Assembly: GCA_021442155.1 (NCBI GenBank)
Contig: CM038215.1
Span: 276,632,413-276,696,412, forward strand
Direction: 5' to 3'
Length of the DNA: 64,000 bases
DNA from: Cymbidium sinense
Lineage: Eukaryota; Streptophyta; Magnoliopsida; Asparagales; Orchidaceae
Shown here one piece after another: positions 1 to 64,000 of the stretch (positions are counted from its first letter, which is position 1; every line of letters starts with the position of its first letter). The notes beneath the pieces were generated by a model, which was given only the letters and a program-made list of their open reading frames with translations, ran no database searches and was not told the DNA's origin. The translations under genes and the position numbers were made by a program.

Positions 1-622
1 ACAGCATCCTAACTTAGAGCTTGAAGTGGTGACTTAATTCTATTATTTGTATTAAGGCTTGTGTGATAAGTCTTGTTTGGCATTAGTGTTGTATTTTTTA
101 AGTGTAGAAGGATTCAATTTAACCTGAAAGGTTGATTTCACTTGAAGTAGAATAATTGATTTGAGAATTTTAATTTGTGTTTTTTTTTCATTTGATTACA
201 CTTAGCAACTAAGCGTTATAAAGAGAGAAAAAAAGGATTTCCCTCTTTCAACCCTACCTTTAGTGTCTTTCTGAAGTATATTAATTTGATTTAGTTCTCT
301 TTAGTGAATGGATTATTAAATAATTTAATTAATCCAAAGTTTAGGTTCTCTTTAAATAATACTATTCAAAATGAAAGGCTTCTTAAGATTAATATAATTC
401 AATTACTACCACATGATATATATTAAATCATTCCTTTCCATGTGACATGCATATGATTTAATCCTAAGTGTATCTATATTTTAGCACACTTAAATGATGT
501 ATGTATGTGTATGTTTAGAATTTATATTTTATTTGATTGAATTATTTAAACATATTAATTTAAAACTTTACCCAAATTCTTATACAAAAAGGACATAAGA
601 ATGAAATTAAATAGACATGTGC

Positions 623-1165
623 TATTGTTAAACTGGTGAGGTGGGGTAATCAAATGACCTCCTTAGAGATAGCTAAAGCCTCGTATTCTCGGTATGTCAA
701 GTCTATATACCCATTTGCATTCAAACATATGTAAATTCATACACATGAACATACGAAGTAATCTCCAAATCATATGGATAATTAATTCATCCACTTAGTC
801 AATTATGAATGCATGCAATTTTAATGTAAAAGGGGATTTTCATTAACTAATCACATATGCATATACATGTACAAAGATATAGGCAAGTACATTTCATTGT
901 TAAACCAGGGAAGTAAGGTAATGAAATGACCTCCTTGGGGCAAACTAAAGCCTCGTATTCCCGGGATGTCCAAACTATAAACTTTGTATTTTTTATTGAA
1001 TCATTTATATATATGAATTAAAGCTCTATCCAAATTCTAATGTTGAAATACATATGAATGAAATCAAATGGGTACGTGCCATTGTTAAACTAGGGAAGTG
1101 AGCTAATCAAATGACCTCCTTAGTGCTAGCTAAAATCTTGTGTTCCCAGGATGTTCAGACTATAT
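623..1165 (+). repeat. Three ~85-bp direct repeat units, copy 1
   Basis: Units start near 623, 895 and 1078. Each runs: attgttaaac, then a purine-rich stretch, caaatgacctcctt, agctaaagcctcgt, and a short end with ccgggatgtc-like and ctatata words. Longer similarity extends upstream of the units (compare 534-600 with 989-1060). The same three units occur in copy 2. Confidence 0.7.
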
Positions 1166-3699
1166 ACCGATTACCATTTAATCTTATATAAATTAACACA
1201 TGAATCGAGGAAATAGAACTCAATATTCATACACTTAAGCTTTAAGAACATGCATTTCTTATGTATTTATAGCTAGCATTATAACACATATTATTATTGA
1301 CTTATAAGCTTTTGAAAAATACATTTGGGTTTAATACTGATAATAGTCACACATATATTAAATTAAATCAACACATGCAAACTTACATAAAGGAAATCCA
1401 TTTTATTTTATTTTATTTTGAAAAGATTGATGCATGAATTTAAATTATATACCAAATTTAACATGATTGGAAAGAGGATAATCAAATATAAGCATGTGAT
1501 TCATTCAAGCAAACTAGTTCTTAAAGACAATCAAATCAAATAAGATTATTTCAAGTAAACCATAGCTTCTTTGTTAATTAAGTTTTTGATTTGATTTGAT
1601 TTAAAGAGGAGTAGAGAAATCATCACTTGTGGTTTTAAACCCATTCCCACATTAGTGATTTGATTTAATATAAGGAAATGTAATTAAGTTTATTTTATGG
1701 GTTAATTAAGTTGAACCCTTAATTAGATGAATTAATTACCCTTACTTATGTCACCTTAATATAATTAACTAAATAATTATGAGCTGACATGATATGCATA
1801 GAAAATAAACTTGTAATGATCCTAGGAAATAAAAGGGGCCTAATGTAATTGGCACATGATTAATAGATACTTAGATTAAGGGACTTAATTAATTACTTGT
1901 ATGGCTTTCGCACACATGTCGACTAACCATAATTTCATTAAGCTCCTCTAGGTTATTAAACACTTAAAGATCTACCCAATGATTTAATTAATTAAAGTCT
2001 AATGTGATTATGATTTCAATTTGATTAAGTGATTTAATTAATTAGTTAAATTTTAATTAATTTCATTTTAAAAAAGGGTGAAATGAACTTAGGGAAAGGG
2101 GTCTCAACCCTATTCCTTAGTTGACTTACTATTCAACAATGATTAATAAACTTAATTAACCAAATTATTATTCATGGGACTAATCATTAATTAACTTAAA
2201 AGAGGAGTTAAGGTCAATTTTCCTAATTAAGTGAGTAATAAATCCCAAGAAATTCATGGGAGGTAGAGGTCATCCTATTAAATTAACTAACAAAATTTAG
2301 AATTAATTGCTCAAGTAATTAAGATAATTAATTTTATAATTAAACTTTAATTAAACCATAATTATTATTAAAAATTAGTTAAGATCATTTTTAATTAATT
2401 CTCCTCCCAAATACCTTTAAAATGAGTATTTATTAGCATTTTGTTTATTTTTCTATGATTTTATGATTTTAGAAGTTTTAGGCATTAAAAATGATTAATT
2501 AAGCCTATAATTTAATCGCGGCCATGTGACATGCACACGCACTTCACTTTAAAACTTATATGACCTAAAGCCTACATGGCAGTGACAGATGCATTTTCTC
2601 TTTTGCCATCCTATCTAAGATCAGATGGCTATGATTAATCCCACAGCTTAATAGGATTTAATGAGATTGATCTAGCGGATCTAATCATGACCATTCATTT
2701 TGATCATGCAGAACGGATGGTGTGTGATCTAACGTCATGCGAATGAGGGAGAATGGAGTCTGTTTACCATTGCTCACTTGATTAGAGCTTACCCGAGCTT
2801 GGATAAACTCCAAATGGATCTCACACCTTCAAAACATCGATCATCGGGGATCCAACTGTCAAGATCACATGAGATGCAAGTTCTCTTCAAAAAGCTCCAA
2901 CCCATTTTTGCCTAAGGATCGATTTTGGAACCATACCTCACTGGAGTTCAAGATTAGCGGCTTGAATGATCGAGGAAGCTTCATGTAATAGAGACAAAGC
3001 CCTGTTGAGTGGGAATTGGATCAATTCTTTGACATTCGCTCGGAAGGTGATGAATTGATGATTTGAAGCTCGGCTTTGATCAAAGTCCCACCTTCAGTGC
3101 TCAGGAACCTTGGGAGATGATTCGTTCTTTCTTGACAAGGCCTAGGGAAGGTGCGTGCAATGTTAATTTGAGTTTGATGGAGAAATGTGGAAGCTAGGTT
3201 GAAAATGACAGTGTCTTATTTTGAGATGGACGGGAATGGCATTTTTTGATTGAGGAATGAGCTTTGGAGCTTAGGGAATGGCTTTAGTGACTCATCTTGG
3301 GTAGCTAGAGCACTAAGGAATGATTTTTGTGTGTGCTTGAATGGAAATGAGGGGTTGTATACCCCTTTTCATCTTGATTAGATAGTTTAGTTTTTGCTGG
3401 CATCTCGTGGAGTGATGGGTGGAAGAGGTCAGTTGGCTCTGCTTGGTTGGTTGAAGGTGTGGAGGTGGCTGCCAAGGAGGAATCATGAGTGTCCTATGTG
3501 TTTCAAATGCTCCAATGGGGAGAGTGAGGTGATTTCACCTCCCATGGGTCATGGCTGACCCAACCACCCAATTGTTCAGGTTCGGTAGTGTCCTAGGCGC
3601 CTAGGTGGACCATTTGGAGAGTACAAAGTTGCCAAGGAATGGAAATGACCACTTAAATGGGTGCTTTGTCTCATATGATGCCCTTGACCCAAGGGTAGA

Positions 3700-4760
3700 A
3701 TTATTATTTGACATTGGATTTGATTTATGCATATTTTAAATGAGCCAAAAGTGGTTTAGACAAAATTTCAAGTCAATTGGAGTCGATTTGATTAGGTTTG
3801 GCTCAATTTGACTCATTTAGGTCAAATTGGGTTAGGTTGCATAAAGTTGACCAATTTGTCAAATTGGGTCAAACCAAAGTTTGGGTCAAGTTCATATAAT
3901 CATTTGGGATGTTTTGGTTTAATTGATTTGGTTTAGTTTGGCTTAGATTTGATTTTGGCTCATTTGAATTCATTTGGGTCAAATGAGTTAAGTTGACCAA
4001 TTTGACCAAATTGACCAAATTGGCTTGCGTGTTAGTTTGGGTTTAGTTGACCAATTGAATATGATTGTAGCTTTGGTTTCAATTAATTTGTATTTGGTTT
4101 TGATTTAGGCTAACTTGAACCTTTTGGTCAATTTTGGGTAAGATGGTCAATTGGATTCAATTGGGTCCAATCATGGCTTTGGTCATGTTCAATAATCAAT
4201 TTGGAATGAGCTTGATCCATTAGTTGCAATCAATTTGGTTTATATTTTAATTTGACCCAATTTGGTCTTTTAGGTCAATTTGGGTCAACTTAGGCCAAGA
4301 GGCCTAATTGGGTTTGGTTTGACTCAACTGAAGGTCAAGTCATATACAAATATTGATTTTGATTTCGTTTGAATCATTGGTTTCAAGGGATTTGGCTTAA
4401 GTTGAAATTTGGCTAGTTTGAGTTCATATGGGTTAAAGGATTGATTTGGTCAAATGACCAAGTTGACTTGGTTTGACCTAATTTGGGATACTTGATCAAC
4501 CTAGGATGATCAACAATCATGATGGGAGAGTTGGTTCAATCTAATTTGGGTAGGGATTAGAACTTGGCTCAAATAAGTCAAATTAGCCACTTTGGGTTCA
4601 ACAATTGGGTTTTGTTAGCTTAATTTTGGATTGAGTTTGATTTAGATACATTTTGGATTGATATATAAATTCAATTGCAATTGAGGTTCAAATGGGTTTT
4701 GGTTCATTTGGACATTTCAAGTAAGTTGGGTTTGACTTTTGATCTTTGTTTGCTTGATGA
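3700..4760 (+). repeat. TTGGTCAA/TTTGACC-rich low-complexity region, copy 1
   Basis: About 1 kb built from short words such as ttggtcaa, tttgacc, gggtca and caatttg, recurring irregularly with no fixed period. The same region is at 20850-21850 and 45850-46890. TTGAC is the core of the plant W-box, but the density here looks like cryptic simple repetition. No regulatory role is claimed. Confidence 0.6.
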
Positions 4761-5500
4761 TTCTAGATTTCATTTATATTTGTGAATATGAATGAAGGTA
4801 TGATTGATTCATGAAAAAATCAATTAAATTTTCGTTTTGGAATGAAGGAATTTGGCTATGTCCATGGAGTTGGGTCATGTGGCTTATGTTTGGATTTGTA
4901 TTTGGTTTGATTTAGTTTTGATTATTTAAATGTATATTTCATTTAAATTTGAGAAGATGATTGAACATAAGATTGATTTATGAGAAAATCAATTGAGCTT
5001 GATTTGATTTGGATTAAGATTTAGCTAAGTCCATGGGATAGGTCATATGGCATAAGAAGGGTTTTGATTTAATTTGATTTAGTTTGATTTAGTTTTGATC
5101 ATTTGAATGTAGATTTGATTATTTAAAAAATCGATTGAAGATATAAATTGATTATGAGAAAATCAATTAATTTATTTATTTGGATTAAGATTTGGCTAAG
5201 TCCATGGGATAGGTCTTATGGCTTAAAGGGTTTCAAGATTGATTATGATCATGGGATTCAATCATTTGGTTTTGGGTTTTTGGAGTTTTGGATTTGAATT
5301 TGATGTTTGAATTGAACTTGAGGTTTGGGTTTTAAGATGGATGGATTGGAGGAAGTTTGATTATCCTAATCCTTAAGGCATAACCTAATCATATGGTTAA
5401 CCTTTCTAAGTCTTTAGGCTTAGTTATGTTTACTTAATAAGTGTCATGACTAAGGAAGTCTCAGTGTTTAGAAGACTCCTAAGTCTAAGATGGGAAGATT

Positions 5501-5812
5501 GAATCCACAATCCAAAAGTGAGGTCAACAGGCCTTAGGCTCCATTGTGTTGCCTTTGGAGATAGATTATTGGAAGAGTGAAGCCAAGTTTCATATTATAT
5601 ACTCGAATATATCTTTCAATGCTTTGCTTAGGAGACCTTGGATACATGAGAATTCCATCCTCTCTCTCTATAAAGTTTGTGAGAGGTGAGATCATCTACT
5701 GTGTTAATGGAGATCTCAAGCCATTTATAGTTCAGGAGGTCAGTATATATGAGGATGTCGCGTACTACCTCTCTCAAAATCAAAAATTCTACTCTCCCAA
5801 ACTTGGCCAAAG
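5501..5812 (+). pseudogene. Ty3 protease, C-terminal half only, copy 1
   Basis: Encodes the second half of a retropepsin: a GQQALGSIVLPLEI-like start, then FHIIYSNISFNALLG-type sequence with frame breaks, then a conserved tail with KFVRGEIIYCVNGDLKPF. In related Tat elements this part lies C-terminal to the DTG or DGG active site. The catalytic half is absent here, and the sequence directly upstream is the non-coding interruption region. A TGA stop precedes the GQQ residues. It is part of a dead polyprotein on the plus strand. The equivalent N-terminal half for copy 2 lies at 15725-15918. Confidence 0.6.
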
Positions 5813-6780
5813 TTTAAAAGTAAAAGAAAAAAAAAAGAAAAATAAACAAAAAAAGAAAAGAAAAGGGAGTGAAAATAGACTTAGAGGAGGAAGTGGAGCC
5901 TAACATTAGACTCAGAGTTCATTACTCCATTTGAACGTATGGGTAGGACGATTGACCTCCACCAAGTAATGGAATAGGTAGTTCAAAAGCGGTCCCATTG
6001 GTGGAAATCCTCCTTATTGGCCAAGAAGATATCTCACTAAGAAGTACACCGCTTATATATTAACTTGGAATCTAGTTGATGGAGTCTTATATGGTTTGCA
6101 CATCAACCATTTTTCTCAACAGAGATTCCTTGAGGTGACACTTGGATAGTGATGAAGATGAAAAGCAAAGCATAAGTGTATCCAAATATATATGTGAAAC
6201 AGTTAGGCATCAGTTGGGAACCTTAGCTCTAACCCAACTTTCCTCTCAAAAATCTAAGGGTTTGGTAGTTAAGGAAGCCCCTAAGTCATCCATAGGTGTG
6301 AAGACTTAGAGGTTCTTTTTGGGAGCATCATCCTCAAGTTAAGAAGATGATGTAGAACTTGAGGATGATTCATATAAAGATTTAATATAATTACCTTTCG
6401 GTTGGTACTTTCCTTGTTTTCATAATTTAACAAAGAAAGAGTTAATCCCACATACTTGGTCAAAGTACAGGTCAGACTATTTTGAAAGAATATGGAAGAA
6501 CAAATGAAAAATCTCTCAATCAAGATTGAGACTAGGTTTCAGTACAGTGGGTCCAGTTGATAATGACGATTATTTCTTAGTCATCACCAATCATTTGGAA
6601 TCTGATAGGTTCTTTTCAAAACATACTAACTCATACAAAGAGCTGTGCTTAGAAACTTCAAATGATCCATATGATTTTGGGGTCAAAGATGCACCGCCAG
6701 AGTTTGAAATAAGAGATCAAGTCAACCATCAATGAGCTCTAAGAAATCAAGTTAGGAAATGAAGAAGATCCACGCCGACA
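5813..6780 (+). pseudogene. Protease-RT linker, lysine-rich, copy 1
   Basis: Polyprotein segment between protease and RT. It opens with an A-rich tract (5818-5870) encoding lysines and glutamates. It continues with a weakly conserved acidic and serine-rich stretch, then ends with an LETSNDPYDFGVKDAPPEFE-like sequence just before RT. In copy 3 the corresponding part also encodes a GRGRGQFRG-type basic patch. The frame is broken several times. A long linker between PR and RT is known in Tat elements. No separate function is claimed. Confidence 0.5.
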
Positions 6781-7640
6781 TACATCAGTTCTTTGTTGAA
6801 TGAAATTGAAATCAATTACTTAGTAGGCTATTGATTGAGTTTAAGGACTACTTTGCATGGAGTTATGAAGAGATGCCTAGATTAGCTCCTGACGTAGTGG
6901 TCCATAAATTAGTAATAGAGTCTATTGCTAACCCTATCAAGCAAGCTCCTAGATGCATGAGATTAGACATAGAATAATAGGTCATTTATGATGTTAAGAA
7001 ATTGATCGATGTTGGATTCATTTGGGAAGAAAAATACCCTACCAGGTTAGCCAGCATCATCCTAGTTAAGAAAAAGAATGGCCAAATTCACATATGTGTC
7101 AATTTTATGGATTTAAATAAGGCATGTCCAAAAGATGAATTTTGACTAATCTGAGATGATGGTGGGCATTCATCAAATGCGTTTCTTTTCATGGATGGCT
7201 CATCCGGATATAACCAAATAAAGATTTCAAAGATGAAAGAAACACTACTTTTAGAACCCCGATCAGAATCTATTGCTATAAGTTCATTCCTTCCATCCTT
7301 AAAAATGCTGGAGCTACATACCAATGGACTATGCTCGAATCTTCGAAGAACTCATTCATCATCAATTCGAGTTCTATGTCGATGATCTCATGGTCCAAAG
7401 TAGAGAAAAGGAAGACCATCTCTTTGACTTGAGAGTAGTTTTTGAATATTTAAGATAATTTTACCTCAAAATAAACCCCCCGAAATATGCATTCAGAGTA
7501 GCTTTAAGGAAATTCCTTAGGTTTATTGTCCGACACCAGGGAATCAAAATTAATTTGGAGAAGATCAAGGCGATATTAGAAATGCCACCCCATAAAATTT
7601 TAACTCAACTTAGATCATTCTAAGGTTGATTGACATATCT
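6781..7640 (+). pseudogene. Ty3 reverse transcriptase, copy 1
   Basis: RT of the Ty3/gypsy type. Recognisable in order: FAWSYEEMPRLAPD, a KKLIDVGFIWEEKYPTRLAS segment, KKKNGQIHICVNF, LNKACPKDEF, FMDGSSGYNQIKIS and the catalytic YVDD at 7375-7386, followed by HLFDLRVVFE and IKAILEMPP-like sequence. The core is damaged: adjacent stops TAA-TAG at 6975-6980, and frame loss between the GYNQ block and YVDD. The TAG is shared with copies 2 and 3. The YVDD box is intact in this copy but the enzyme could not be made. Confidence 0.85.
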
Positions 7641-8240
7641 AAGATGCTTTATATCCAACTTGTCAAAAAGATGTTAACCATTCTCAGCACTTGTCAAAAA
7701 GGATGCCTAGTTCAAGTTGGATGACAAGTGTGAGCATGCCTTCAAGGACATCAAGCATTACCTGATGACATCGTCAGTTCTAGCAGCCCCTATCCCAAGT
7801 AAGCAGCACATACTTTACACTACTATGTTAGACAACTCCCTTGGTGCTTTGTTGGCCAAAGCCAATGAAAAAGAGAAGGAAAATGCACTCTACTACTTCT
7901 TCGTAATCCACGAGGCTAATTATCCACCATGAAGCATTGCTTAGCTTTAATCTTTGCATACCAAAAGCTATAACACTACATGCTTCCTCATAAGATAAAC
8001 TTAATCTCTACGCTCAATCCACTACAATATCTCATGATACGGCCGATGCTGTCTGCATGATTGGCATGACGATCCATGATCTTCTCATAGTTTAACATTA
8101 CCTTCGTACCCCTCTGTGCGATAAAAATATAAATGCTAGTAAATTGCTTAGCAACACACCAACTTCTTGCTGACTTTTTGCTTAGTGATGATCTAACCAA
8201 TGAACAAATCATGAACTTAGGGGATGCTAGCATTCATCGC
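7641..8240 (+). pseudogene. Ty3 RNase H (first), copy 1
   Basis: The connection and RNase H domain follow RT. Visible: AFKDIKHYLMTSSVLAAPIP, ILYTTMLDNSLGALLAKANE and ENALYYFF. After a frame change come the ...KQLALIFAYQKL-like and ADFLA-like parts up to about 8240. Stops and shifts interrupt it near 7930 and beyond. Spacing and order match the RT-RNase H unit of gypsy elements. Confidence 0.7.
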
Positions 8241-8700
8241 TAGGAGATATACTTTGATGGTGTGATTTCCTCTCATAGAGGAGAAGAACCACTATCTACT
8301 ATTTCAGGAAAGGCAAGGGTAGGAATAGTTTTCTTAACTCGGGACCGTGATGTGATGGGATTCTCATATCATGTATCCAATTCTTGCACCAATAATGAAG
8401 ATGAATATGAGGCCTAATTGCCAATATGGAGTTAGCCGTTACTCTAAGCATCGAGAACATTAACATTTTCGGGGATTCTCACCTAATTATCAACCAAATC
8501 GTTGGGTCCTATAAGGTTATAAAGCCCAAGCTCCATCACTACCACAAGTACACCATTGAGTTGTTGGCCCAAATCCTAGAGGTTTCCTTTTATAAGATTC
8601 CTCAGGGAGAGAACACCATAGCATATGCTTTAGCCAAGCTTGTCATGGAGTTGGCATGTTCAGAGGATGAGTCCATATCAATAAAGGTCTAAAATTGATA
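8241..8700 (+). pseudogene. Second (archaeal-like) RNase H, copy 1
   Basis: A second RNase H follows the first. EIYFDG (Asp codon at 8256-8258) is the first catalytic block, then SCTNNEDEYEA, then NINIFGDSHLIINQIVGSYK with the GDS block, then LLAQILEVSFYKIPQGENT and YALAKL. This arrangement, a gypsy RNase H followed by a second RNase H before integrase, is established for the Tat lineage. A TAG stop at 8241-8243 directly precedes EIYFDG and is shared with copy 2. The frame is broken again at the EYEA block. Confidence 0.75.
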
Positions 8701-10010
8701 AATCTTATCTCTTATTGATATTGAACTCATCAAAAAGTACTCTACTGAAGGGGAGCTTGCCATTTCCAAGAAGGACAAGGAGTTAGATTGGAGGAAACCA
8801 TTCATGGATTACCTTAATAAAGGTAAACTACATTAAGAGAAGTCTCAAGCCCATTAGATGAAGCTGAGAGCACTTTCCTATGCTCTTGTGGATGTTGTCT
8901 TATACCGGCAATCTTTTGATCATATGTGGTTACATTATTTAGAAAAGCACGAAGCCCATAAGATTGCGATCAAGGTACACTCAGGATTATGTGGAGCCAA
9001 CCAATCCGATCTGAAGATGAAAGACAAAATCAAGAGACTAGGATACTACTGGCCGTCAATGAACAAAGATTTCATGGATACAGCTAGGTGATACCACTAA
9101 TGTCAAATACACGGCGTGGTCCTACACTAACCACCCAATATTCTACATCCTACATCTATTGGCCTCATGGACATTCAAGTGTTAAGTACCGACATAGTGG
9201 GTCTAATTGAGCTTCTTCTTCCAAGGGTCATTGGTTCATCTTATGCTATTGACTACTTTTCCAAAAGGCAAAGCATTTAGAGAGGTCAACAGCATGTGCT
9301 TCAATTTTTTAAGAACCGTGTCATATATAGGTTTGGAGTGCCTCGATGAATTATATCTGATAATGATACTGCATTCAAGAGCATCAAGATCAACAATTTT
9401 TCCTAGAAACACATCATAGATTGGAGTTATTCTACCATCAACTACCTGAATGCAAATAGCTTAGCAAAAGCCTTCAATAAAATGGTCATCAAAATTCTAA
9501 TGAAGACACTCGACAATAATAAGCGATAGTGACATGAGTAGTTAGTTGAAGCATTATGGGCCTATCGCACCATATATAGAACTCCAACTTAATATACTCC
9601 TTTCATTCTACCATTAGAAGTCCAACTCACATCACTAAAGATAGTTGTGGGTAGCAAGATTACAACAAAGCAGAACGATAAGTTGCAGTTAGAAGAGCTT
9701 GAAGGTTTAAAGTAGAGATGCCTATGGGCATGCCAAAACCTTGAGTTGTACAAAGCTAAAAGGTTTCAAGCTTACAATAAGTTGGTTCATCCTAGAGCTT
9801 TTCAAGTAGGAGAGCTTATTTTAGTTCTAAGGAGACTAATTATTTCCCATCGTAATATGGGAGGCAAGTTTGTACCCACTTGGGAAGGCCCTTTTGACAT
9901 AGAGAAGGCCTACCAAAAAGGATCTTATCAGCTTATTAATCATAAGGGGGAGCACCCAATGCTTCCAATCAATGGGCTCTACTTAAAGAAATATTATAAA
10001 TTAGGTTTAA
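8701..10010 (+). pseudogene. Ty3 integrase, copy 1
   Basis: Integrase. It starts with HKIAIKVHSGLCGANQSD and RLGYYWPSMNKDFMD (zinc-finger HHCC module, followed by a CQIHGVVLH-like second part). The catalytic core has TDIVGLI and an ISDND block, and a LVEALWAYRT-like segment. The C-terminal GPY-type module lies at 9746-10000: FQVGELILVLRR, FVPTWEGPFDIEKAYQKGSYQL, and INGLYLKKYY at the end. Frameshifts are frequent, and a TAG at 9539-9541 is shared with copies 2 and 3. The GPY-type tail is the best preserved open stretch, 144 codons. Confidence 0.8.
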
Positions 10011-11380: not shown

Positions 11381-12050
11381 TAACAATTTATTCATTCGAA
11401 TTACATGTTAACATTGTAATCAACATTTTATGAATTGTGATGGTGCAAGCTCAAACTAATTATACAATATCATGCTAAACATATTATAGTGTGAATTAAC
11501 ACACTATATTATATTATAATATATGAAGTTATATTATAATTTGCTATAATATAATATAATATCTAACATTAAACCTCATTAGAATCACTTAAAAGGATCA
11601 AAAAACAAAATATTCTCAAAATATGAATAATGTTCATTTTGGATGTAAAATTGTTTTTTTTTTCTATTAAAAATGGTAGAAAATAGCATAATTTTGGTGT
11701 TGCTTCTTGGAGTGTGTTGTGAATTAGGCTAGATTCATCCATCTTAACCTTCAAATTAACATTTTTGTGAGCTTTGACCCAATGTATTATAACAAAAGTA
11801 AAACATACTAAAATGTACAATAACATTTAGTAACACACCACCATATTCATATATATGTGACGCCTTCATATAATATACTATCTTACATTACACCTTAAAA
11901 TGAATCACTTTAAGCAAAAAATTATAAAATTTAGTTGAAAAACAAATATTTATTTTGTATGCAAAATTCCATTATTTTGATTAAATGACACACCATAGCA
12001 CACCACAATGATGTTCCTTAAAGCTTACCATAAATTTGGCCAAATCCCAT
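11381..12050 (+). repeat. AT-rich ~320-bp degenerate tandem repeats, copy 1
   Basis: About two units. Anchor phrases (variants of aaatttggccaaatcccatc followed by caacatttttatga) lie near 11400, 11718 and 12028, giving spacings of about 310-320 bp. Tracts of tataatata lie at 11495-11562. The array is cut by the TTTAGG-type array near 12050; in copies 2 and 3 it continues for several more units. Confidence 0.6.
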
Positions 12051-36350: not shown

Positions 36351-36360
36351 TTTTTTTTTG

Positions 36361-40110: not shown

Positions 40111-40113
40111 GGA

Positions 40114-52290: not shown

Positions 52291-54885
52291 AAAATCATGT
52301 TTGAAAATAATTATCATCAATGAAAATTTCATTTTAAATTCAATCTCTTCTATGTTGAAAGTATTCTTATTTGTGAATATGCCATGATGTCTTTAAGGTA
52401 GGTGTAAGGAAACCGAGTGGTGTTCTAACCTTCATCAACACAACATAAATATAAACTACACATAAAAATATAAAATAAACACATATCCTTTATCTCGGGC
52501 TACTCTAAGTTAAGATAATTCCCCTAGCGGCACTCATTCAGTAGCTACTCTAGGTTGAGCTGACTAGTTACCCTGCTAGTGTGTCACCCCAGTGGTCTTC
52601 TTGCTTTGGAGGATGTAAGTCTGCTACACTTTCCTTCTTTACTTGGCCACACACATCGACAAATGCCTTGTTAGTTTAGTATGCCTTACTACATGTCCGG
52701 TAAGCTACCTCATGTGGGCTTAGTTTAAGAGGATGTGAGTCTGCTACACTTTCTTCTTGGATCAGCCTTCGTGCACTAATTGGGTCGAGTATATTTAAGG
52801 TCTAGGATAGGTCCCCTAGTGGCTCCTTCCCTTCTAACTACCTCAAGTCTGGGTCTAGTCCTTCATTGAGGCTCCCCGTTTAGTAGTCGCTCTAGATGAG
52901 ATAGCATCTGTTCCATTGACGATAGGCTATCCCGATGTTCAGTTCCACTTAGAAAGTTATAAGCCTACACACTTTCTTTTCAGATTGATTATTGCACACC
53001 GATGGGCACCTTAGGTTGGTTGGTTCTCACTATACTAATGGATACACCACTCATGCTGATGGATACACCTTTGGTTGGTTGGTTCTCACACCTTAGAATT
53101 CACCACTCATGGTAGATGTAAGTCTGCAACACTTTCTCCTTGAGTTGGCCATCTTACACCTATAAGCTTTCTTTTCCAGGGCTTAGATTAATTCCCCTAG
53201 TAGTACCTCCCCTGTGGGCACTATATTTGGATCATGTCTTTTGCGACCTCATTTAGACAGTACCTGGGTTACTATCGGCTTAGATAGTTCCCCTTTCCAA
53301 ATAACCACCCTTGTGGTTAGAGAATTTGTCCTGTGGATGTGCAAATTCTCCCTTGGTCTAGTAAATCTGAGATAGGTCAAGTCTGGCATATCTTCTTCTC
53401 AATATGGTCCCTCACACACTAACAAGGTCCATGCAAAGATATAAATAAAATATATATTCACTTGTGGATTAGGAAGACATCATTAGTAGTACCTTTTCCC
53501 AAGCAAGCATCCTATCTTTAGGGTAGTGTCAATAAAACTCCTTATAGGAATCACTTGACTACTCTTAAGTTGATATAAGTCCCCATCAACATTCACTCAG
53601 TAGTCACCCTTAAGTCAGGTTCTTTTTGTTGTGCTACCAACAGGTCACCCAGTGGTTGTTCCCTGCTTTAGAAGATGTAAATTTACTAGACCTTCTTCCT
53701 AGCATTGCCATTGCACACTGAAAGCCAACCCTTTTGGTTGGCTATCTCTACCCCATGGCTAGTAGACTATCCCTTTGGATTTGTAAATTTGAGATATGAT
53801 AAGTCTGATATTTCCCCTTCTCAGTGGGTCCATTGCACACTGACATGGTCCAAAAATTAAATCTAATAAATTTGACCTAGCTCACATCCCCAATGGATAT
53901 GCCCTCAATTTGAAATCAAACTAAACCACAAAAAACCATATCAAACCACATGAAATGAAGATAAAATTATTTCTAATTACTTTTGAGTTGACAGAATTCC
54001 CTAGTAGCATTCACTCAGTTGTCATCCTAGGTTAGGTTGAATTTATTCTGCATCCAAGAAGTCACCGCAATGATTGTTCCTTGCTTTGGAAGATGTAAGT
54101 ATGCTATGCCTCTTCCTAGCACAACCGTTGCACATCGAAAGGCAACCCCTTCGGTTAGCTAGCTCTACCCCGCAGCTGGTAGATTATCCCTTTGGATTTG
54201 TAAACCTGAGGTAGGTCAAAGCAGATATAACCCCTTATCAGTGGGTTCATTGCACACCGATAAGGTCCATACATTAACTCAGATTAAATAAAACCAATTT
54301 TATTATCCCTAATGGAGTTAAATCACTCCCTTCTACCTAGTGGAGCCCCAAATCATATGTAAATAAGTCAAGCAAATAAATCAAAGTCAAAACCAACCTC
54401 CCTAGTGGAACCAAATTAAACCAACTCCCCTAGTAGAGTCTAAATTAAAGAAATCCAACTAAACTTTTATTCCTAGCAGATACATCCCTAAATAAATCTA
54501 TGGAATCAAACTCAAATCCAAATTCCCAGTGGATAGCTTGAAACTTCTTCCTTAGTGGAAGGTTCATATACTCGATCCTTAGTAGACTTGAGCCCATATC
54601 TCTACCAGATATGCCTCGACATCAATTAAAACTAAACAAATTAAAGTCGATTTGATCTAAATCCTTGTGGATTATAGAATCTTATCTCCAGCAGATCTTC
54701 TTTCCACAAATCATATAGTCAAATCAAATTCAAACCTTATCCCCAATAGATTTTCTTCTTTTATGCCCTCGACATAGACCTCTCACATGTCATGTCCAAT
54801 GTATGTGTGATCCCCTAAAGGATCTCCCTCCATGTCTTTGACAAGGAATTCTCATCAAATCTTATTTCTTCTCTTAGTTACACCT
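52291..54885 (+). repeat. 3' non-coding region with ~400-bp degenerate repeats, copy 3
   Basis: Unit cores (gatgtaagtctgctacactt and variants) near 52610, 52728, 53112, 53669 and 54088, matching copy 2 in order and spacing. The same ccccagtggat and ccctagtggaacc phrases follow. No coding region recognised. Confidence 0.65.
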
Positions 54886-56375
54886 TTAATACTTCAACAA
54901 AAAGCATAATAATGTATTTGTTCAAATTACATCATCTTAACATTATAATCAACATTTTATGATTTATAATGGTGCAAGCTCAAACTAACTACACAATATC
55001 ATGCTAAACATATTATTGTGCGAATTAACACATTATATTATATTATAATATATGATGTTATATTATAATTTGCTATAATATATTATATTGCCTAATAGTA
55101 CACCTCATTAGAATCACTTAAAAGAAACAAATAACAAAAATTTCTAGAAATATGAATAATGTTCATTTTGGATGTAAAATTGTTATTTTTCCTATTAGAA
55201 ATTATACAAAATAGCATAATTTTGGTGTTGCTTCTTGGTGTGTATCGTGAATTTGGAAAAATCTTCCATCTCAACCTTCAAATTAAATTTTTTTTGAGTT
55301 TTGACCCAACTTATTATAACAAAAGTAAAACATACTAAAATTTACAATAACATTTAGTAAAACATCACCACATTCATATATATGTGAGGTTATACTGTTA
55401 TGTACGTTATATTTTAATATGCTTTCATATAATATATTATCTTACATTACACCTAAAATTGAATCACTTTAAGAAAAAAATTTATAAAATTTGGTTGAAA
55501 ATTGAACATTTATTTTGGATACAAAATTCCATTCTTTTGATTAAATGACACACCATAGCAGACTCCCAATGTTGTTAACTAAACTTACCTTAAATTTGGA
55601 TAAATTCCATCATCTCAGCCTATAAATTAATATTTTTATGAATTATACCAGTACAAAACTATACTACATCATACTATAACAAACTAAAATATGCTAAACA
55701 ATAAGTAGTAATACACAATAGTATGCTATATTGCATGATACTACACTGTTATGACATCCTATATTATAATACACTATAATATATTATATTATATTATATT
55801 ATATTGCATTTCACATCATAAGGGATTGCTTAAGATAACAAATCATAAAATTATTCTAAACAATAAAAGACTATTTTTTTAGTCGTATCACTTACATATT
55901 CTAAATTGAAACAATATATTATGATACCATGCTCTATCCATTATGAATTTGGCCAAATTCCACCATTTTAAAGTCTAAATCAACATTTTTATAAACAATG
56001 CTAGTGTAGGCTCGACTGCATGATTGTATAATACTAAAAGAATTTAAAATGCGAAGAATGATATATTATGATATATGATGTTATACTATGCTACAACATA
56101 TAATATTTATTTAGAACATAAAAGCTTACTTTTTAGACTACAAGCGGCATAGCACACCTTTGGTACTACAACCTAATTCCCACTTGAAATTTAACAAATT
56201 TCATCATCTAATTTATTAAATTAATTTTTTTATGATTTATATTAATATAGACTATAGGGCACAATACCATAATATACTAAAACATTTCAAAACATCTTAT
56301 AACATCCAAAAAAAATCACTACATGCTCAAGTATATGATGCTAGATTATACTATGATATATAGTATTATAATATG
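54886..56375 (+). repeat. AT-rich ~330-bp degenerate tandem repeats, copy 3
   Basis: Anchors near 54921, 55250, 55590, 55945 and 56190, as in copy 2. Tracts of tatattatattataatata lie at 55030-55095 and 55740-55805. It ends at tatgagttagggttaggg. Confidence 0.65.
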
Positions 56376-56873
56376 AGTTAGGGTTAGGGTTTAAGGTATT
56401 CAAATCTCTAATAGTCAAGGGAAAGTCTCTTGAAGACATTTTCTTTAGTTACCATAACTATGTTAGGATTAGGTCATTTTTTAGATCTACTCCTAATGAC
56501 ATATTTATTCAAGGTTTAGGGTTTAGTGTTTAGGGTTAGTTTAGGGTTATTTTAGGGTTTAGGGTTAGTTTAGGATTTAGGATTTAAGGTTAGTTTTTGG
56601 TTTAGGGTTTAAGGTTTAGGGTTTGGGGTTTAGAGTTTAGGGTTTTGGGTTGTAAGTTTTAGGGTTTAGGATTGTAGGTTTTAGGGTTTAAAGTTTAAGG
56701 TTTTGGGTTTTATGGTTTTAGGGTTTGGGGTTTAGGGTTTATGGTTTAGTGTTTAGGGTATAGCTTAGGGTTTAAGTTTTAGCTTAGGGTTTATGGTTTT
56801 AGTTTTAGGTTTAGGGTTTAAATTTTAGCTTAAGGTTTAGGGTTTGGGGTTTAAGTTTTTTTTAATAGAGAAC
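56376..56873 (+). repeat. Telomere-like array with the conserved spacer
   Basis: Counterpart of 31121-31590: the spacer tattcaaatctctaatagtc ... ttaccataactatgtt at about 56395-56515, then TTTAGGG words to the GRP fragment. The conserved spacer shows this array is a duplicate of the earlier one and did not arise independently. Confidence 0.85.
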
Positions 56874-57241
56874 AAATTTAGATTCATTATTTCTTCTTTT
56901 CAATTTCATCAACTAAGTAGTAAGACACAAGCGACAACATAGATGAAAAAGGAGCTCCCATAGAGCAGATCAAAAACCTTAGATAAGTAGAACTGTCTAT
57001 ATAATAAGGACACAATTTCATAAGTAGCAGATTAGATCGATCGTTCTTCCATGTCTCCAGTTCCCATCAGAACCACCCCCGCCTCTCGAGTAGCGAGATC
57101 CGCCATCATATACGTGATCTCTACGTCTACCACTAGCACAACTATAACCTCCATCGCTCCTCCTACCTCCATAACCACCACTACTCCGACCACCACCTAG
57201 TTGATGGTGATGTTCCTGCCATCAAGATTCTGCCTATTCTT
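56874..57241 (-). pseudogene. Glycine-rich RNA-binding protein retro-fragment, type 1, copy D1
   Basis: Minus strand from 57241: KNRQNLDGRNITIN, a TAG stop shared with B1, then directly a glycine-rich part (internal deletion compared with B1 and A). Remnants of the 3' UTR-like sequence follow, ending in TTGTTCTCTATT and an A tract (T run near 56866-56873). The left edge (...attctt|aggg) equals A and B1. Only the end of the RRM is present, so no RNA-binding domain could form. Confidence 0.7.
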
Positions 57242-58769
57242 AGGGCTTAAGGTTTAGGGTTAGTTGAGGGTTTAGGGTTGGTTTAGGGATTGGGGTTTAA
57301 GGTTTGGGGTTTAGGGTTTAGGGTTGTAGGTTTTAGGGTTTAGGGTTTAGGGTTTAGGGTTTAGGGTTTATGTTTTAGGTTTTAGGGTTTAGCATTTAGA
57401 GTTTTGGATTCGTGGTTGGGCATTGTGGGTTTAGTAGCAGGTTTAGGTTTAGGGTTTTAGGATTGTGTTAGGGTTTGGGTGGGTTGTAGGTTTAAGGTTT
57501 AGGTTAGTTTTATGATTTGGGGGTTTAGTATTTAGGTTTAGAATTTAAGCCTTTAGTTTTTTTAAATTAAGCAATTGACAAAGTTAGTTTATTTAGTTTA
57601 TTTAGTTTATTTATTTATTTATTTGAGCTTATTTTATTTTATTTTATTTAGGTTTATTTATTATTTTTAATTAGTTTAGTTTATTTATTTTAGGTTTATT
57701 TATTTTAGTTTAGTTTTTATTTTAATTTATTTTTTAGGTTTAAGTTTTATTTTTAGAATTTTATTTTTATTTTTTTTTGGTTTAGGTTTTATTTTTTATT
57801 TTTATGTTTAGGTTTAGGTTTTTATTTTCTTTTTTTAGGTTCAAGCTTTAGGTTTTTATTTTAGGTTAATTTTTAGGTTTTATTTTTTAGTTTAGGTTTA
57901 TTTTTAGTTTATTTTATTTTATTTAGTTTTGGTTTTGGTTTAGGTTTAATTTATTTTAAGTTTAGGTTTAGGTTTATTTTATTTTGTTTATTTTATTTTA
58001 ATTTTAGGTTTTTTTAGTTTAGTGTTTAGGTTTTATTATTTATTCATTTTAGGTTTTATTTTAGGATTATTTTTTAGGTTTAGGTTGTTTTATTTTATTT
58101 TATTTTAGGTTTATTTTATTTTATTTTACATTTAGTTTTTATCTTATTAAGATTTTTATTAGGTTTTTTTATTTTAATTTAATCCAAGTTTTCTTTTCTT
58201 ATATTCCTTATTTTAATCCTTTTAATTTATTTTAGGTTTAGCTTTAGGTTTTAGTTTAGGTTTTTATTTATTTATTTTATTTTCTAGGTTAGTTTTAATC
58301 ATTTTATTTTAAGCCTTTATTAGTAGGCCTGTGGTTAGGTTAGGCTCAGGGTCAGGGTTTAGTGTCAGCTCAGGGCTCTGGCCTTCAATGTTTAGTCAAG
58401 ATCAGGTGCCTAGGGCTCAGTGGTCACTGGTTTAGGGTCTGAGCAGCTTGTGCTTGTGGGGCCTTTAGGGTTTGGCTCAGGGTTGGCCTAGGGTCTGCTT
58501 TAGTTTTAGGTTTAGGTTTAGGGTTATAGGTTTAGAGTTTAGGGTTTAGGGTTGAAAGTCTATGGCTTAGGGTTTAGAGTTTAGGGTTTAAGGCTATAAG
58601 TTTTAAGTTTTAGGGTTTAAGGTTTAATGTTTTAGGGATTAGGGTTTAGGGCTTAGGATTTTAGCATTTAGGGTTTAGGGTTGAGGTTTTATGGTTTAGT
58701 GTTTAGTGATTTGGGTTTTTATTTTAGGTTTAGGGTTTAAGGTTTTTGTTTAGGGTTTAGGGTTTAAGG
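57242..58769 (+). repeat. Degenerate telomere-like array between GRP fragments
   Basis: Canonical TTTAGGG near 57330-57370, a tttattttatttag-type centre (57590-58310), a GC-richer island at 58320-58500 (ctcagggtcaggg, gcctagggctcagtgg), then TTTAGGG words again. Nothing coding. Confidence 0.85.
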
Positions 58770-59079
58770 TTTTTTTTTAACAGAGAACAAATTCAGATTC
58801 AACATTTCTTCTTTTTGATTTCATTAACCAAGTAGCACCCTAGGTTTTCTAAGACACAAGCAATGGCAAAGATAAAAAAGAGCACCCTTAGAGCAAATAA
58901 AAAACCCTAGATAAGTAGAATTATCGAAAAGACACATACAGAAGTGATCGATCGAAAGCATTCTTTAATTTATCAAGTTCCCTTCAGAACCACCCCGACC
59001 TCTTAAGTAGTGGGATCGACCATCATATTCCTGACCTCTCCCCCTACCACCACCACTGCTATAACTTCCATCATTCCTT
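58770..59079 (-). pseudogene. Glycine-rich protein retro-fragment, type 2, copy D2
   Basis: Same short form as B2: on the minus strand it begins at AAGGAATGATGG next to array, holds a piece of glycine-rich coding sequence and the 3' UTR-like part, and ends at an A tract (T run 58770-58778). The truncation point is identical to B2, so the two are duplicates. Confidence 0.65.
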
Positions 59080-61031
59080 GGTTTAGGTTTAGGTTTTTAT
59101 TTTATTTCTTTATGTTTAGGTTTTAGGTTTTTATTTTAGGTTTATTTTTAGGATTTTTTTTAGGTTTAAGATAATTTTTAGTTTATTTTATTTTATTTAG
59201 TTTAGGTTTAGGTGTAGGTTTTATTTATTTTAGTTTAGTTTATTTTAGTTTAGGTTTAGCTTTATTTTATTTTGTTTATTTTATTTTTATTTTCGGTTTA
59301 GGTTTTTTTAAGTTTAAGATTTAGGTTTTATTTTTTTATTTTTAAGATTTATTATTTAGGTTTATTTTTTTGGTTTAGGTCTTTTACTTAGTTTTATTTT
59401 ATTTTATTTTACATTTATTTTATTTAGGTTTTTTATTCTTAAGTTTGTTTTATTTTTAGTTTAGTTTAGGTTTTTCTTTTTTTATTTTAGTTTATATTTT
59501 TTTATCTTTTATTTAGGTTTATGTTTAGGTTTTAGTATAGGTTTTTATTTTATTTATTTATTTACATTATTTAATTTAGCTCACGTTTATTTTAGTGGCC
59601 TTAGTTGGCTCAGTGGTTAGTTCAGTGGCTCAGTTTGGTCTAGGTTTGGGTCAGGGCTAATGTTGTTCAGCCTCAGGTCAGAGCCCAGGGCCCATGGTTG
59701 GGCTAGAGGGCCCAGGGTCTGTGGTCAGTGGCCCAGTTTAGTGTGGGGCCTGGGGAGGCTCAGACAGAGCTCAGTTATAGGCCCAGGAGTTTGTTTAGGG
59801 TTGGCTCAGTGTAGGTAGTGGTGCCTAGGGCCTAGGTCAGGTTTTATAGCCATTTTAGGCTTTATTTTATTTAGTCAGATAATTTAGTTTTATTTATTTA
59901 GTTTGTAGGTTTATTTATTTAGTTTAGTTTATTTTGTTTAGGTTTAGCTATTATTATTTTATTTTTATTTTATATTTAGGATCTTTAGATTTAGGTTTAT
60001 TTTTTTATTTTGCATTTCAGGTTTATATGTTTAGTTTCATTTAGTTTTATTTTATTATTATGTTTATTTTATTTTATTATCTGGTTTTATTCTCGGTTTT
60101 ATCTTTAGTTTAGTCTTCTTATTTTTATCTTATTTATTATTTTATTTATTTAGTTTAGTGAGGTTTTATTTTATTTATCTTTATTTTATTTACATCTTTA
60201 TTTAGTATGTCAGGTTTAAGTTTAGGGTAGGGTAGAGTCTGGGTTGGGCCCAGGGTCTGGATCTTGGCCTTTTAGGGCCCAGGGCCTGGCTGGCCTTGGC
60301 TAGGGCCTTAGATGGGCTCATGGCTCAGTGGCCTTGGCTCAGGTGGCTGGGCTTCAGCCTTGGTTCAGTGCTCAGTGATTGGTAGGCCCAGCCTTGTGGT
60401 AGGCTCAGTGGGTATGGCTAGGGTCTGTGGTTTAGGCTCAGCTCAGGGTTTAGCATTTTAGGATTTAGAACTAGGTGCCTAGGTTAGGTTTTATCTTTAT
60501 TTTTTGGGTTTAGTTTAACAAAATTTTATTATTTTATTTTATTTATTTTAGGTTTAGTGTAGGTTTTATTTATCTTAGTTTAGGTTTTCTTATTTTATTT
60601 TATTTTCGGTTTAGGTTTTTTTATTTAGGATTTAAGTTTTTTTAGTTTATTTTTAGGTTTATTTTATGTTTAGGCATTTTATTTTATCTTTTATTTTATT
60701 ATTATTATTTTAGGTTTTATTCTTAAGTTTGTTTTATTTTTTAGTTTAGTTTAGGTTTTTCTTTTTTTATTTTAGTTTTTTTTATTTTTTTATTTTATTT
60801 TTAGGTTTATGTTTAGATTTTAGTATATGTTTTTATTTTATTTTATTTATTTATTTATTTTATTTTTACATTTTATTTAGTTTATGTTTAGGCTTTTACA
60901 TTTTTAGGGTTTAGGGTGTTTAGAGTTTGGGTTTAGGGTTTTTGGGTTTTAGGTTTTAGGGTTTAGGGTTTAAGGTTTTAGAGTTTAGGCTTTAGGGTTA
61001 TAGTTTTGGGTTAATGGTTTAGGGTTTAAGA
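59080..61031 (+). repeat. Degenerate telomere-like array with GC-rich islands before LINE 2
   Basis: tttattttatttagttta-type sequence interrupted by islands at about 59590-59850 and 60220-60480 made of ggctcagtgg, gcccaggg and ggcctagg words. Then TTTAGGG words (60900-61030) up to the LINE 2 A tract. No coding region recognised. Confidence 0.8.
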
Positions 61032-64000
61032 TTTTTTTTTAAAACCCCATATAGGGGGAATTTTATTGCCACAAAAAGAGGGTTACATGATCCATAAGAG
61101 GAAATAAACTCCAAAATTACTGCTCAAAGAGCTACAATCAGCCTAGAGAGTAAATCCCCTATCTAAGTACAATCAAAAGCAAAATAAAAGAGAAAAGTAA
61201 AGCAAAAGATACAAAGTGATTAACATAGATAAGCCAATGGATAGATCAGGGCTAAAGCTCTTCAGGATGACAGAATGCATGCCAGTAGAGAGCAAACCTG
61301 CAAGAGAAAAGAGAAGTGCATCTGCAAATATGAAGAAAGATAGAAATTAGAACAGTTAAAGTAGTACAACGAAAGTGAAAAATGAGAGCAGCATAAACTG
61401 AAGAAAATCATAGATAAGTGTGTGAAAGAAGGCTCAGGCTCAGTCACACCAAATTGGGGCAGATGCAAATATGAGCATCCAAACTTCAGCGGAAGGGTTA
61501 CATCATAAGAGCTATTACCAAACCAAGAAGGAGTGAAATCATCACAGCCATCATAGCCTACAAACCTATGAGAAGAAAGCAGCCATTTGTTAAAAGACTT
61601 ATGGGCCTTAGTACCTACAAACCTAAACAAATCCATATATAATATATAAAGGAGATAGCAAAGAGCAGAAAGATAAGGGGTCCCATGCAGGAAAATTAGC
61701 ATAAAAACCCACCATAAGAGAACAACAGAAAAAGCAACCTGCTGAAATCCTGCTAAGCAAATCAATGAGCCAAACATATGAGACATATATGAAACTTTTA
61801 GGCCAGGAGTATAGCCCTGAAATATAGTCTAGAAAAGAAACCCAATCATAATAAGCAATGGAGATGTTAACAACCCCCTTATTAATAACCATTGCAGAAG
61901 TTAAGAAAAAGCAAATGTAAAGCAAGGTAGCAGAACCCAAACCCAAATACAACAAGTGATGCAGAAGTATAATAGGACAAAGGTGAGGATGCAGCAATAG
62001 ATTAGTTGTGTCAGTAACCACAAGAAATAGGTTGCATCCCACCGTAAATAGCACCAAATAAAGACATCTCTAGTAACAGCATGCTAGGCATAATACCCGA
62101 TAATCCAGATCAGCAAACAACCAAGATAGCAAAAGATAACAGCTGTCCATAGAACTACCCATTTAGAATAGACAGTACATAAGATTATTACCTAGTAGAT
62201 AGAAGCATAATCACAAGGATCTGCACAAGTCTAACTAAACCAAGATGGAAAAAATAGCGGCAAATTAAGTAGTCTATAGATATCAAGTGACAAGCAGCAT
62301 CCCAGACAAAAACAACAAAGTCAATCAGTATGCCCACCCCATAAGCAGCTTGATGGACATAGGACCCTAAAGTCCCACAGTCAACAAATAAAATAACAAA
62401 ATAATTATTGCACCCACCATAAGATAATCCAATAAAAAATAAAGAAACAACATAGACACTTAGGGGGTTCAAAGGAGAGCCAACATTGGAATCCTGAAAA
62501 ACCAAGACAGCAGATAACCAAGACAACAAACAACCAATATAGCAAATAACAACTAGCTAGCCATAAAGCCACCCATTCAAAATAGACAATGCATTAGTTA
62601 GTAACCAAGTAGGTAGTAGCATAATCACAGGCAACAAATAAAACATCAAAGCCATTATTGCACCCACCATAAGATTAGCCAAAATAAAATAGTGATATAA
62701 CATAGGCATAGAAGGGGTTCAAAGGAGAGCCAACATTGGAATCCTTCAAGTTAAATAAAAGAAGACCAGCAGTTAAGCTAACAACATTAGTAAAAGCAGA
62801 CTGGAAAGAAGATAAAAAGAAAGTCCAATCCTGCAAGGAGAAAATAATAATAATAACAAGGATATAAAAGTGTCTCTCTATACAGGTTGGGGAGATGAGA
62901 TTAGCAAGAATAATCATAAAAACCATGACAGCAAATAACATGTACAACAAATAGCCAAGACAGAAATGTAGTCAATTCTAGAACCGTAATAGATAGTGCA
63001 TAAGATAACATAAGGATCTACACAAGTCTAACAGAACTAGGATCAATTAAACAACAACATATTAAGTAGTCCACAAATATCAGATGATAAAGAGTCTACC
63101 GCAAATAATAAAGACAATCGAGTAACAACCTTTAATTAACCACTAAAGACCAGCACATAATCTAATTAAAACAAAAACAGTAATTGTTTCACCCACCATA
63201 AGATAAATCAGTAAGGAACATGGAGACAACATAGACTCGAAAGTGGTTTGAGAAAAAAACCATCATTGAAATCCTTCAAGACAAAGAAAAGCAGACTAGC
63301 AGGTAAGCCAACATCACCAGTAAAAATAGGCTGAAATGAAATCAAGAATAAAATCCCATCCTACAAAGAAATAATAATAATAACAAGATTATTGTAGTTT
63401 CTCTCCATACAGGTAATGGAGGTGAGGTTAGATAGCATAGGAGGGGACAAAACCCTATTAAAGAGAGAAAAGATAGATAAATTCAAGCTTGCCATGAAGC
63501 TATACAAAATTATAGCAATTACATAAGAAAGTCATGAGGCCATGAACAAATTTCAGATTAAGGAAAAGAGAAAACACAGCCTTAATCATATATTGGAAAA
63601 TTACAATAGGACCCATAAACAGAATAATGATAGCAAGAAGTCTGTCCCTATAAAGCAGAAAGAAAAGCATAAAATAATCCATCTCACTCCCGCAGATTGG
63701 AGAAACCTTACCAAAAGCAGTGGTTTCAATGAAAACAGCAGTAATAGTAAAACCCCAAATAAGGTTAGGGTAAGTAATCCAATAGTAGATTCCATAGAGA
63801 TCAACAACTAACCAGAAAGGTGCAACAAGAATTAGCATCAACAAAATCCAGAGAAACATCAAAACTAAACAGAAGTTGATCATGCAGTTAATCATGTAAT
63901 GTAACAGTCCAAACCAATAGGATGGATTAATTTTTGAGGTAAGGGAGTCCAAGATATCCAAATTAACCAAACCACAAAATGTTTAGAAGTGTAAGTTGAT
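61032..64000 (-). mobile_element. L1-type LINE 2, 3' part, runs out of the window
   Basis: Relative of LINE 1 in the same orientation. The A tract is at 61032-61040 (as T). The 3' terminal sequence matches LINE 1 closely (gggttacatgatcc, gcaataaaattcc on the minus strand). The hydrophobic repeat frames are present (174 codons at 61262-61786, 113 at 62188-62529, 91 at 62675-62950), and near 63900-64000 the end of the RNase H region is reached (compare 40060-40190). Between the A tract and that point it is about 0.87 kb shorter than LINE 1, with fewer repeat units. The RT and endonuclease would lie beyond 64000. Confidence 0.8.
61062..61067 (-). promoter_or_regulatory. LINE 2 polyadenylation signal AATAAA
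   Basis: gcaataaaattcc on the minus strand about 22-27 bases before the A tract, in the same context as in LINE 1. Confidence 0.6.

Follow-up and report, generated by a model that had tools for sequence, protein, structure and literature searches.

Dead copies of a dispersed Tat-clade Ty3 family carrying a telomere-like array as the probable basis of a repeated block in Cymbidium sinense

The stretch of DNA analyzed here, a 64,000-nucleotide window of the orchid Cymbidium sinense (C2:276632413-276696412 in a 3.53-Gb genome), contains the same ordered set of unrelated parts more than once, namely a Ty3 retrotransposon remnant, long arrays of the telomere-like repeat TTTAGGG, pseudogenes of a glycine-rich RNA-binding protein (GRP) and a long interspersed nuclear element (LINE). 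Was a unit of about 25 kb amplified in tandem at this place, as the first-pass annotation of the window proposed, or do these parts belong to an element that is found elsewhere in the genome as well? Our answer, to which we assign a probability of roughly 0.7, is that the window holds three old, dead copies of a large, dispersed Tat-clade Ty3 family carrying a telomere-like array, and not a local 25-kb satellite. In what follows, the copies in the window are called blocks A, B and C, those in the flanks D1, D1b (a piece consisting of spacer only) and D2, while dispersed copies carry numbers starting with L. Coordinates that are negative or exceed 64000 lie in the flanks outside the window, of which 100 kb were inspected on each side (264 kb in all). 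Rfam gave no match at gathering thresholds.

The evidence that carries this reading comes from the rest of the genome. Among the 40 scored of 7,708 first-look candidates, obtained with the RNase H piece of block B as the query, B itself stands at 100% and the other 39, on many contigs, at 81-89%; neither A nor C is among these 40, while a copy on contig C18 reaches 89%. The joint between element and array was sampled in 20 stretches where the 850-bp spacer that precedes it should lie (19 being those with the highest rank on chromosome-sized contigs, the remaining one a match of lower rank on C7, with small contigs left out). The spacer is present in 14 of them, and 13 of these 14 end in the same joint, TATTCAAG/TTTAGGG-like array, the 13 copies being spread over six contigs (C1, C2, C3, C9, C18 and C20). 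The spacer match reaches the last base in 11 of the 13, and extends to 848 in L047 and to 831 in L030. Beyond the joint, 11 of the 13 copies were compared with each other (55 pairs). In four copies picked from these 11 (L035, L036, L037 and L040, on C20, C1, C2 and C9, respectively) the array is in register, the six pairs being 84.5-94.3% identical over 1.6 kb, as against 62.5-76.2% in the 12 out-of-register comparisons that served as reference; a 300-base shift was not used as a control, since the aligner slid back into register and returned 78.7-90.3%. Because the joint recurs in 13 of the 20 dispersed copies, and because the arrays of four copies are in register with each other, the array seems to be part of a dispersed Ty3 family of the Tat clade (Ogre/Retand type). 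Copies of a single element family thus yield the shared order without any tandem amplification.

Within the window, the three Ty3 blocks lie on one strand and are 80-87% alike. In self-BLAST comparisons, A matches B at 2552-10203 versus 19641-27334 (80.3%) and C at 2268-10203 versus 44426-52503 (80.6%), and B matches C at 19618-34221 versus 44685-59572 (83.3% over 15.2 kb). This last match scores 15,373 bits, compared with at most 39 bits in 20 controls that paired the first 12 kb of B with those of C after the latter had been shuffled in 10-base blocks. The B/C diagonal is continuous over the whole 15.2 kb and passes through the junctions of Ty3 with array and of the GRPs; between 19.3 and 33.9 kb its offset is 25.0-25.3 kb, and the order common to both blocks is Ty3, 3' non-coding region, spacer, TTTAGGG array, first GRP copy, TTTAGGG array, TTTAT array, TTTAGGG array and second GRP copy. 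At 34-36 kb the diagonal is gone; the LINE 3' end returns at an offset of 24.68 kb, and the diagonal is thin at 37-39 kb. The landmark offsets of about 25 kb and the common order, on which the first-pass annotation had built its unit, are thus borne out for B and C from the Ty3 body through the second GRP copy; at the LINE end the offset changes, and between A and B it is about 17 kb. The reduced third version that it placed at 1-15724 is indeed collinear, being block A, but has a Ty3-to-array joint of its own (at 12076) and is without the 850-bp spacer. Moreover, the divergence between B and C is approximately that between A and B in the 5' half and only about half of it in the 3' half, which points to B and C having exchanged or duplicated sequence at a later time in the 3' part. 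Since B and C are the closest relatives in this part and share the truncation of their second GRP copy, a local duplication or conversion between them is likely. The position from which, rightwards, B/C divergence falls by about half relative to A/B (about 25200 in B and 50340 in C) suggests a recombination or conversion boundary.

The flanks show the same kind of structure. D1 (which has an internal repeat and spans about -33.1 to -12.96 kb), D1b and D2 (148.4 to 163.4 kb) sit among arrays, GRPs and LINEs, and the right joint is identical in five of the six local blocks (D1, D1b, B, C and D2), A being the one that differs. Counting the units and their spacing had been proposed as a check on tandem amplification, and here the proposal fared badly: the Ty3 blocks lie at irregular distances (about -32, 0, 17, 44 and 149 kb), and their left ends are different. 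A macrosatellite would have a regular unit with a constant head-to-tail joint, confined to one or a few loci; the six local blocks have neither regular unit nor such a joint, and 13 of the 20 dispersed stretches carry the same joint as the local ones. The 264 kb consist of Ty3/GRP/LINE modules (53%), arrays (36%) and other sequence (11%), much of the latter resembling other leftover pieces next to LINEs. The guess that the window belongs to a larger repeat domain is therefore sound as far as its length goes, arrays and modules making up 89% of the 264 kb, but the window does not lie at a contig end, being located at 276.6 of 306 Mb; its TTTAGGG tandem repeats are, accordingly, interstitial telomeric repeats. 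Larger inverted array stretches occur in the flanks at -100 to -85 kb and at 78 to 93 kb.

What kind of element is this? The Ty3 body of A (1-10203, plus strand like those of B and C, with which it is collinear by blastn) is made of a segment X (1-2504), a T/G-rich non-coding region (about 2552-5500) and remnants of protease (PRO), reverse transcriptase (RT), RNase H (RH), a second RNase H (aRH) and integrase (INT) at about 5522-10177. Pfam matches are RT_RNaseH_2 (7711-7929), RVT_3 (8411-8689) and a weak Integrase_H2C2 (8858-9088; E=0.0095, below the Pfam cut-off). The left end of A lies beyond the window, at about -5.16 kb, and its 3' non-coding region (10207-12076, plus strand) ends in the A-specific joint, to a TTTAT-type array. 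Block B starts on the plus strand with a protease-like remnant, read from motifs, and the sequence following it (15724-16939); this part directly abuts the array of A, its homologous sequence in block A lies beyond the window at about -3229, and Pfam gave no match for the protease-like pieces at 15726-15862. The Ty3 body of B (16940-27334) contains X, the T/G-rich region and the PRO/RT/RH/aRH/INT remnants (RVT_1 at 24439-24708, RT_RNaseH_2 at 24834-25148), and its plus-strand 3' non-coding region and 850-bp spacer (27335-31244) end in the recurrent joint to TTTAGGG, as do those of C (52504-56508). The body of C (44426-52503; RVT_1 at 49392-49712, RVT_3 at 50512-50760) has its left end cut inside X. 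The domain order in the remnants is RVT_1, RT_RNaseH_2, RVT_3 and the weak integrase zinc domain. A second RNase H besides RH, seen as RT_RNaseH_2 followed by RVT_3, is the mark of the Tat clade, and in A the aRH stands between RH and INT (the INT match being weak), as in Ogre and Retand of angiosperms (PMC6317226, in part). The nearest named protein to a piece upstream of RT is from Phalaenopsis (62%). Between the protease-like remnants, about 7-9 kb are non-coding (X and the T/G-rich region; 15724-22640 in B and -3229 to 5522 in A); the Ogre intron near that place is far shorter, with a mean of 274 bp (PMC6317226, in part). The X segments (1-2504 and 16940-19528) were considered as the long terminal repeat (LTR) pair of block A, as they are more alike than the coding part, and were dropped: transversion distances are equal (5.5% in X and 5.5% in the coding region), and each local block carrying X has one X.

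The copies are decayed. Substitutions among A, B and C are without codon-position bias (p = 0.07, 0.19 and 0.95), and, counting in-phase intervals only (one out-of-phase interval was left out), 31 of 37 stop positions are private to one copy, 1 is found in two and 5 in all three. Because the bias is absent and the stops are mostly private, it is most likely that the three copies were still nearly intact when they split, and that their later decay was free of selection. A shared inactivation was considered in view of the five common stops and set aside, four of them lying past a frame change; the fifth, in frame (49232 in C, where homologues have Q), may be a recurrent CAG-to-TAG change and proves nothing in this respect.

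Long TTTAGGG-like arrays, as first annotated, are present in the array domains of all three blocks, all read on the plus strand. That of A (12078-15722) has TTTAGGG and TTTAT-type stretches and includes an inverted TTTAT-type piece at 12296-12968; that of B (31245-36351) has both types and two GRP copies; that of C (56509-61035) includes stretches altered from T to C; and a further TTTAGGG array (43940-44428, plus strand) lies between a LINE 5' end and block C. This last array was considered as a freshly added telomere, for which a token-based estimate spoke; in an alignment-based comparison the difference was only mild (9.1% altered, the least of 12 TTTAGGG arrays, with 11.1% in B1), and the claim is not made. 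TTTAT-type arrays (32298-33095, 34744-36340 and similar ones) consist of T(n)A G(0-3) units with about 1-2.5% C, and 4.9% in one, and in several TTTAGGG arrays the C content is under the point-mutation expectation. A short, conserved AATTAAGCAAACTAGTAGG-like linker stands at the passage from TTTAGGG to TTTAT-type repeats (14150-14180, 15165-15215, 32270-32297, 34715-34740 and 57560-57585), and similar short linkers occur in the dispersed copies L036 and L049. In the altered stretches of C (58310-58500, 59600-59860 and 60230-60460), T-to-C is the commonest change and the C content is 18-21%, versus 0.4-2.9% in the 12 TTTAGGG arrays measured; L029 is likewise CCCAGGG-like where L036 has TTTAGGG. 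In nanopore data, CCCTAA is read as CCCTGG, with similar errors in Arabidopsis (PMC9414165, in part), and the T-to-C stretches in C and L029 are possibly such miscalls. Miscalls do not explain the start of the TTTAT-type array, however, which is shared in detail by B and C (about 90% at 32298-32700, and 68% over the next 400 bases).

The GRP copies lie on the minus strand: one in A (13390-13876), antisense to the G-strand of the array and identified as a 5'-truncated retropseudogene by translation and a PDB match, two in B (B1, 31590-31975; B2, 33486-33780) and two in C (C1, 56863-57215; C2, 58775-59080). Their start corresponds to the RRM end of a plant glycine-rich RNA-binding protein (an 18-residue match to PDB 4c7q, E=0.0015), which is followed by a glycine-rich reading on the minus strand and by an A-run at the end, with array on both sides; a homology search with the GRP piece returned nothing at E<=0.001, and neither did Pfam. 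The copies in A, B1 and C1 begin at an identical point. The truncation points that had been taken as common to the repeated blocks are in fact so for B2 and C2, though not for the LINEs of B and C. At least 25 GRP matches lie in the 264 kb, and the 25 listed follow the strand of an adjacent array, even where the array is inverted (-100 to -85 kb). Elsewhere, 3 kb farther along L036 (C1) there is still array, and in it lies a GRP whose 5' cut is much the same; GRP is also found in L046 (C6) and L047 (C1).

The LINE of B (36352-43938, minus strand) is 5'-truncated and has endonuclease (EN), RT and zf-RVT remnants; a second copy, in C (61032-64000, minus strand), extends beyond the window to about +67877. 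By its domain set (RVT_1 and zf-RVT in Pfam, with Exo_endo_phos, for EN, sub-threshold) and by its plant RT homologues (the closest from Theobroma, 50%, and Dendrobium, 59%, over part of the query), it classifies as a plant L1 type. Its 3' region (36352-40190, about 3.8 kb in B, and 61032-64000) has internal repeats of about 0.3-0.7 kb, and the minus-strand open frames there have no Pfam match above the cut-off. Were the LINEs of B and C a single shared insertion? Low identity spoke against it, a 92% alike 3' end then reopened the question, and the 5' truncations, which lie at different places about 95 bp apart, decided it, so that the two are judged separate. LINEs in arrays have one orientation, and in all eight copies whose 3' end was found, each from the array-rich domain, this end adjoins the array through a T-run.

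How might such a domain have come about? The 3' non-coding end of the Ty3 element would run into a composite TTTAGGG-like/TTTAT-like array that is part of the unit and spreads with the element, as the four in-register copies on four contigs indicate. Into such an array, the copy of a GRP mRNA, truncated at its 5' end and ending in poly(A), would have entered, presumably once, since its 5' cut is shared, and would now be carried along. In the case of the LINEs, insertion into the arrays would have turned the A-rich tail to the T-rich strand, as in target-primed reverse transcription into T-rich DNA; while their orientation is observed, this mechanism is a conjecture, and priming on the T-rich strand may likewise account for the fixed orientation of both LINEs and GRPs. 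The domain of at least 264 kb could then have been built as new copies settled within or beside the arrays of earlier ones, along with the local duplication or conversion between B and C. Such copies would need no present function and could decay neutrally.

Several observations weigh against this account. The left ends differ in all six local blocks (that of D1 being placed only to about 200 bases), and five of the six directly adjoin array, a pattern not expected from ordinary LTR insertion. Despite six Ty3 blocks, no LTR pair was found in the window or in leftover domain segments, in a search that was not exhaustive, and neither a primer-binding site nor target-site duplications were found. 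LTR insertion thus leaves both the unseen LTRs and the different left ends unexplained. Furthermore, 6 of the 20 sampled stretches are without the spacer, L044 stops short of the joint, and most of the 55 dispersed pairs are out of register (median 72.4%). In a tree of the 3' part, finally, B and C are sisters (support 1.000, 93.9% identity), which fits local duplication. The same tree unites B, C, D1 and D2 with L047, which bears a GRP (1.000), and separates them from other dispersed copies, which are mostly on short branches in a mostly star-like arrangement, with L030 and L044 on longer ones.

The sister position of B and C, their unbroken diagonal at a near-constant offset and their common GRP2 truncation would also follow if a Ty3/array/GRP/LINE unit of about 25 kb had been amplified in tandem by unequal crossing-over between arrays. 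We consider this distinctly unlikely: the same joints stand on other contigs, spacing is irregular and left joints differ, the LINE cuts of B and C do not coincide, A and C are missing from the 40 scored RNase H matches in which the C18 copy appears, and the 3' part of D2 is, by raw identity, slightly nearer to L036 on C1 (91.9%) than to B (91.2%). After the genome sample and the flank comparison, local tandem amplification was set aside as the main explanation, and what survives of it is the likely event between B and C. The main rival, which strikes us as unlikely, is array-driven copying, whereby a broken telomere-like array is mended on the template of a Ty3-array copy elsewhere, reached through strand invasion or template switching, with copying proceeding rightwards. 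This would give a constant right joint and variable left joints, as in yeast Y' elements or MoTeR arrays (analogous structures are described in PMC13177704 and PMC7367193, both in part), and such is the pattern of the local blocks, with arrays on both sides; in particular, the left joints of D2 (GGGTT) and C (GGT) have short homology to the repeat. However, the left joints of B and D1b have little or no microhomology (those of A and D1 could not be judged), the mostly star-like tree also fits a burst of retrotransposition, and the array next to C, though the least altered, cannot clearly be called fresher than B1. An assembly artefact, with falsely tandem or collapsed haplotypes, is very improbable: the T-to-C stretches do resemble known nanopore miscalls of telomere repeats (PMC9414165, in part), but the copies are 13-20% apart, above haplotype expectation, and the structure recurs on other contigs.

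A further reading, which we regard as unlikely, is that a Ty3-derived family seeds telomere-type DNA genome-wide without normal LTR integration, its 3' joint constant and its 5' end variably truncated, spreading through the repeat itself. Telomere-like DNA might serve as the primer of reverse transcription in this process, or breaks might induce copying of one array into another. If so, it would form, together with the array-dwelling LINEs, a telomere-repeat-based transposon community far from chromosome ends. Returning to the dispersed Tat-clade family that we prefer, its implications are broader. Large interstitial telomere-type blocks in plants are usually taken as scars of chromosome fusion or as satellites (an account drawn in part from PMC8621592). 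If the 3' end of a high-copy retrotransposon bears arrays of this kind, transposon freight could account for many such blocks, the reading of cytogenetic telomere signals would change, and the origin of interstitial telomeric repeats would be directly testable via their flanks.

How does this family compare with known systems? Tat elements with 3' tandem repeats are known already, and the telomere-type array is an unusual variant of them; among the open-licence papers listed, titles and opening lines of abstracts show no Tat element that bears arrays of telomere type, which is weak evidence of novelty. Like Ogre and Retand, the element has a second RNase H between RH and INT, a large size and big non-coding regions, and tandem-repeat arrays do occur in the non-coding regions of Tat elements (PMC6317226, in part, which refers to an amplified tandem repeat in Retand and to Macas 2009 on satellites in 3' untranslated regions). 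Unlike in these, the repeat is telomere-type (TTTAGGG/TTTAT), kilobases long and accompanied by a captured retrocopy of a host gene, and LTRs and primer-binding site are not seen. With other interstitial telomeric-like repeats of plants, the arrays share TTTAGGG-type units inside chromosomes and AT-rich partner repeats (PMC8621592, in part, which cites the AT-rich telomere-containing repeats of Pinus densiflora), but here they are attached to a retrotransposon family, moving with it in the copies compared. The LINEs recall the telomere-targeted TRAS/SART, Zepp and MoTeR in being non-LTR elements within telomere-type repeats, 5'-truncated and with repeats at both borders (PMC10088271 and PMC7367193, in part); as our copies were all drawn from the array-rich domain, their location in arrays does not by itself amount to a target preference. 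Finally, blocks in the same orientation split by telomere-type repeats are also seen in yeast Y' elements with interstitial telomere tracts (PMC13177704, in part), whereas the blocks described here lie away from the contig end and are those of a dispersed retrotransposon.

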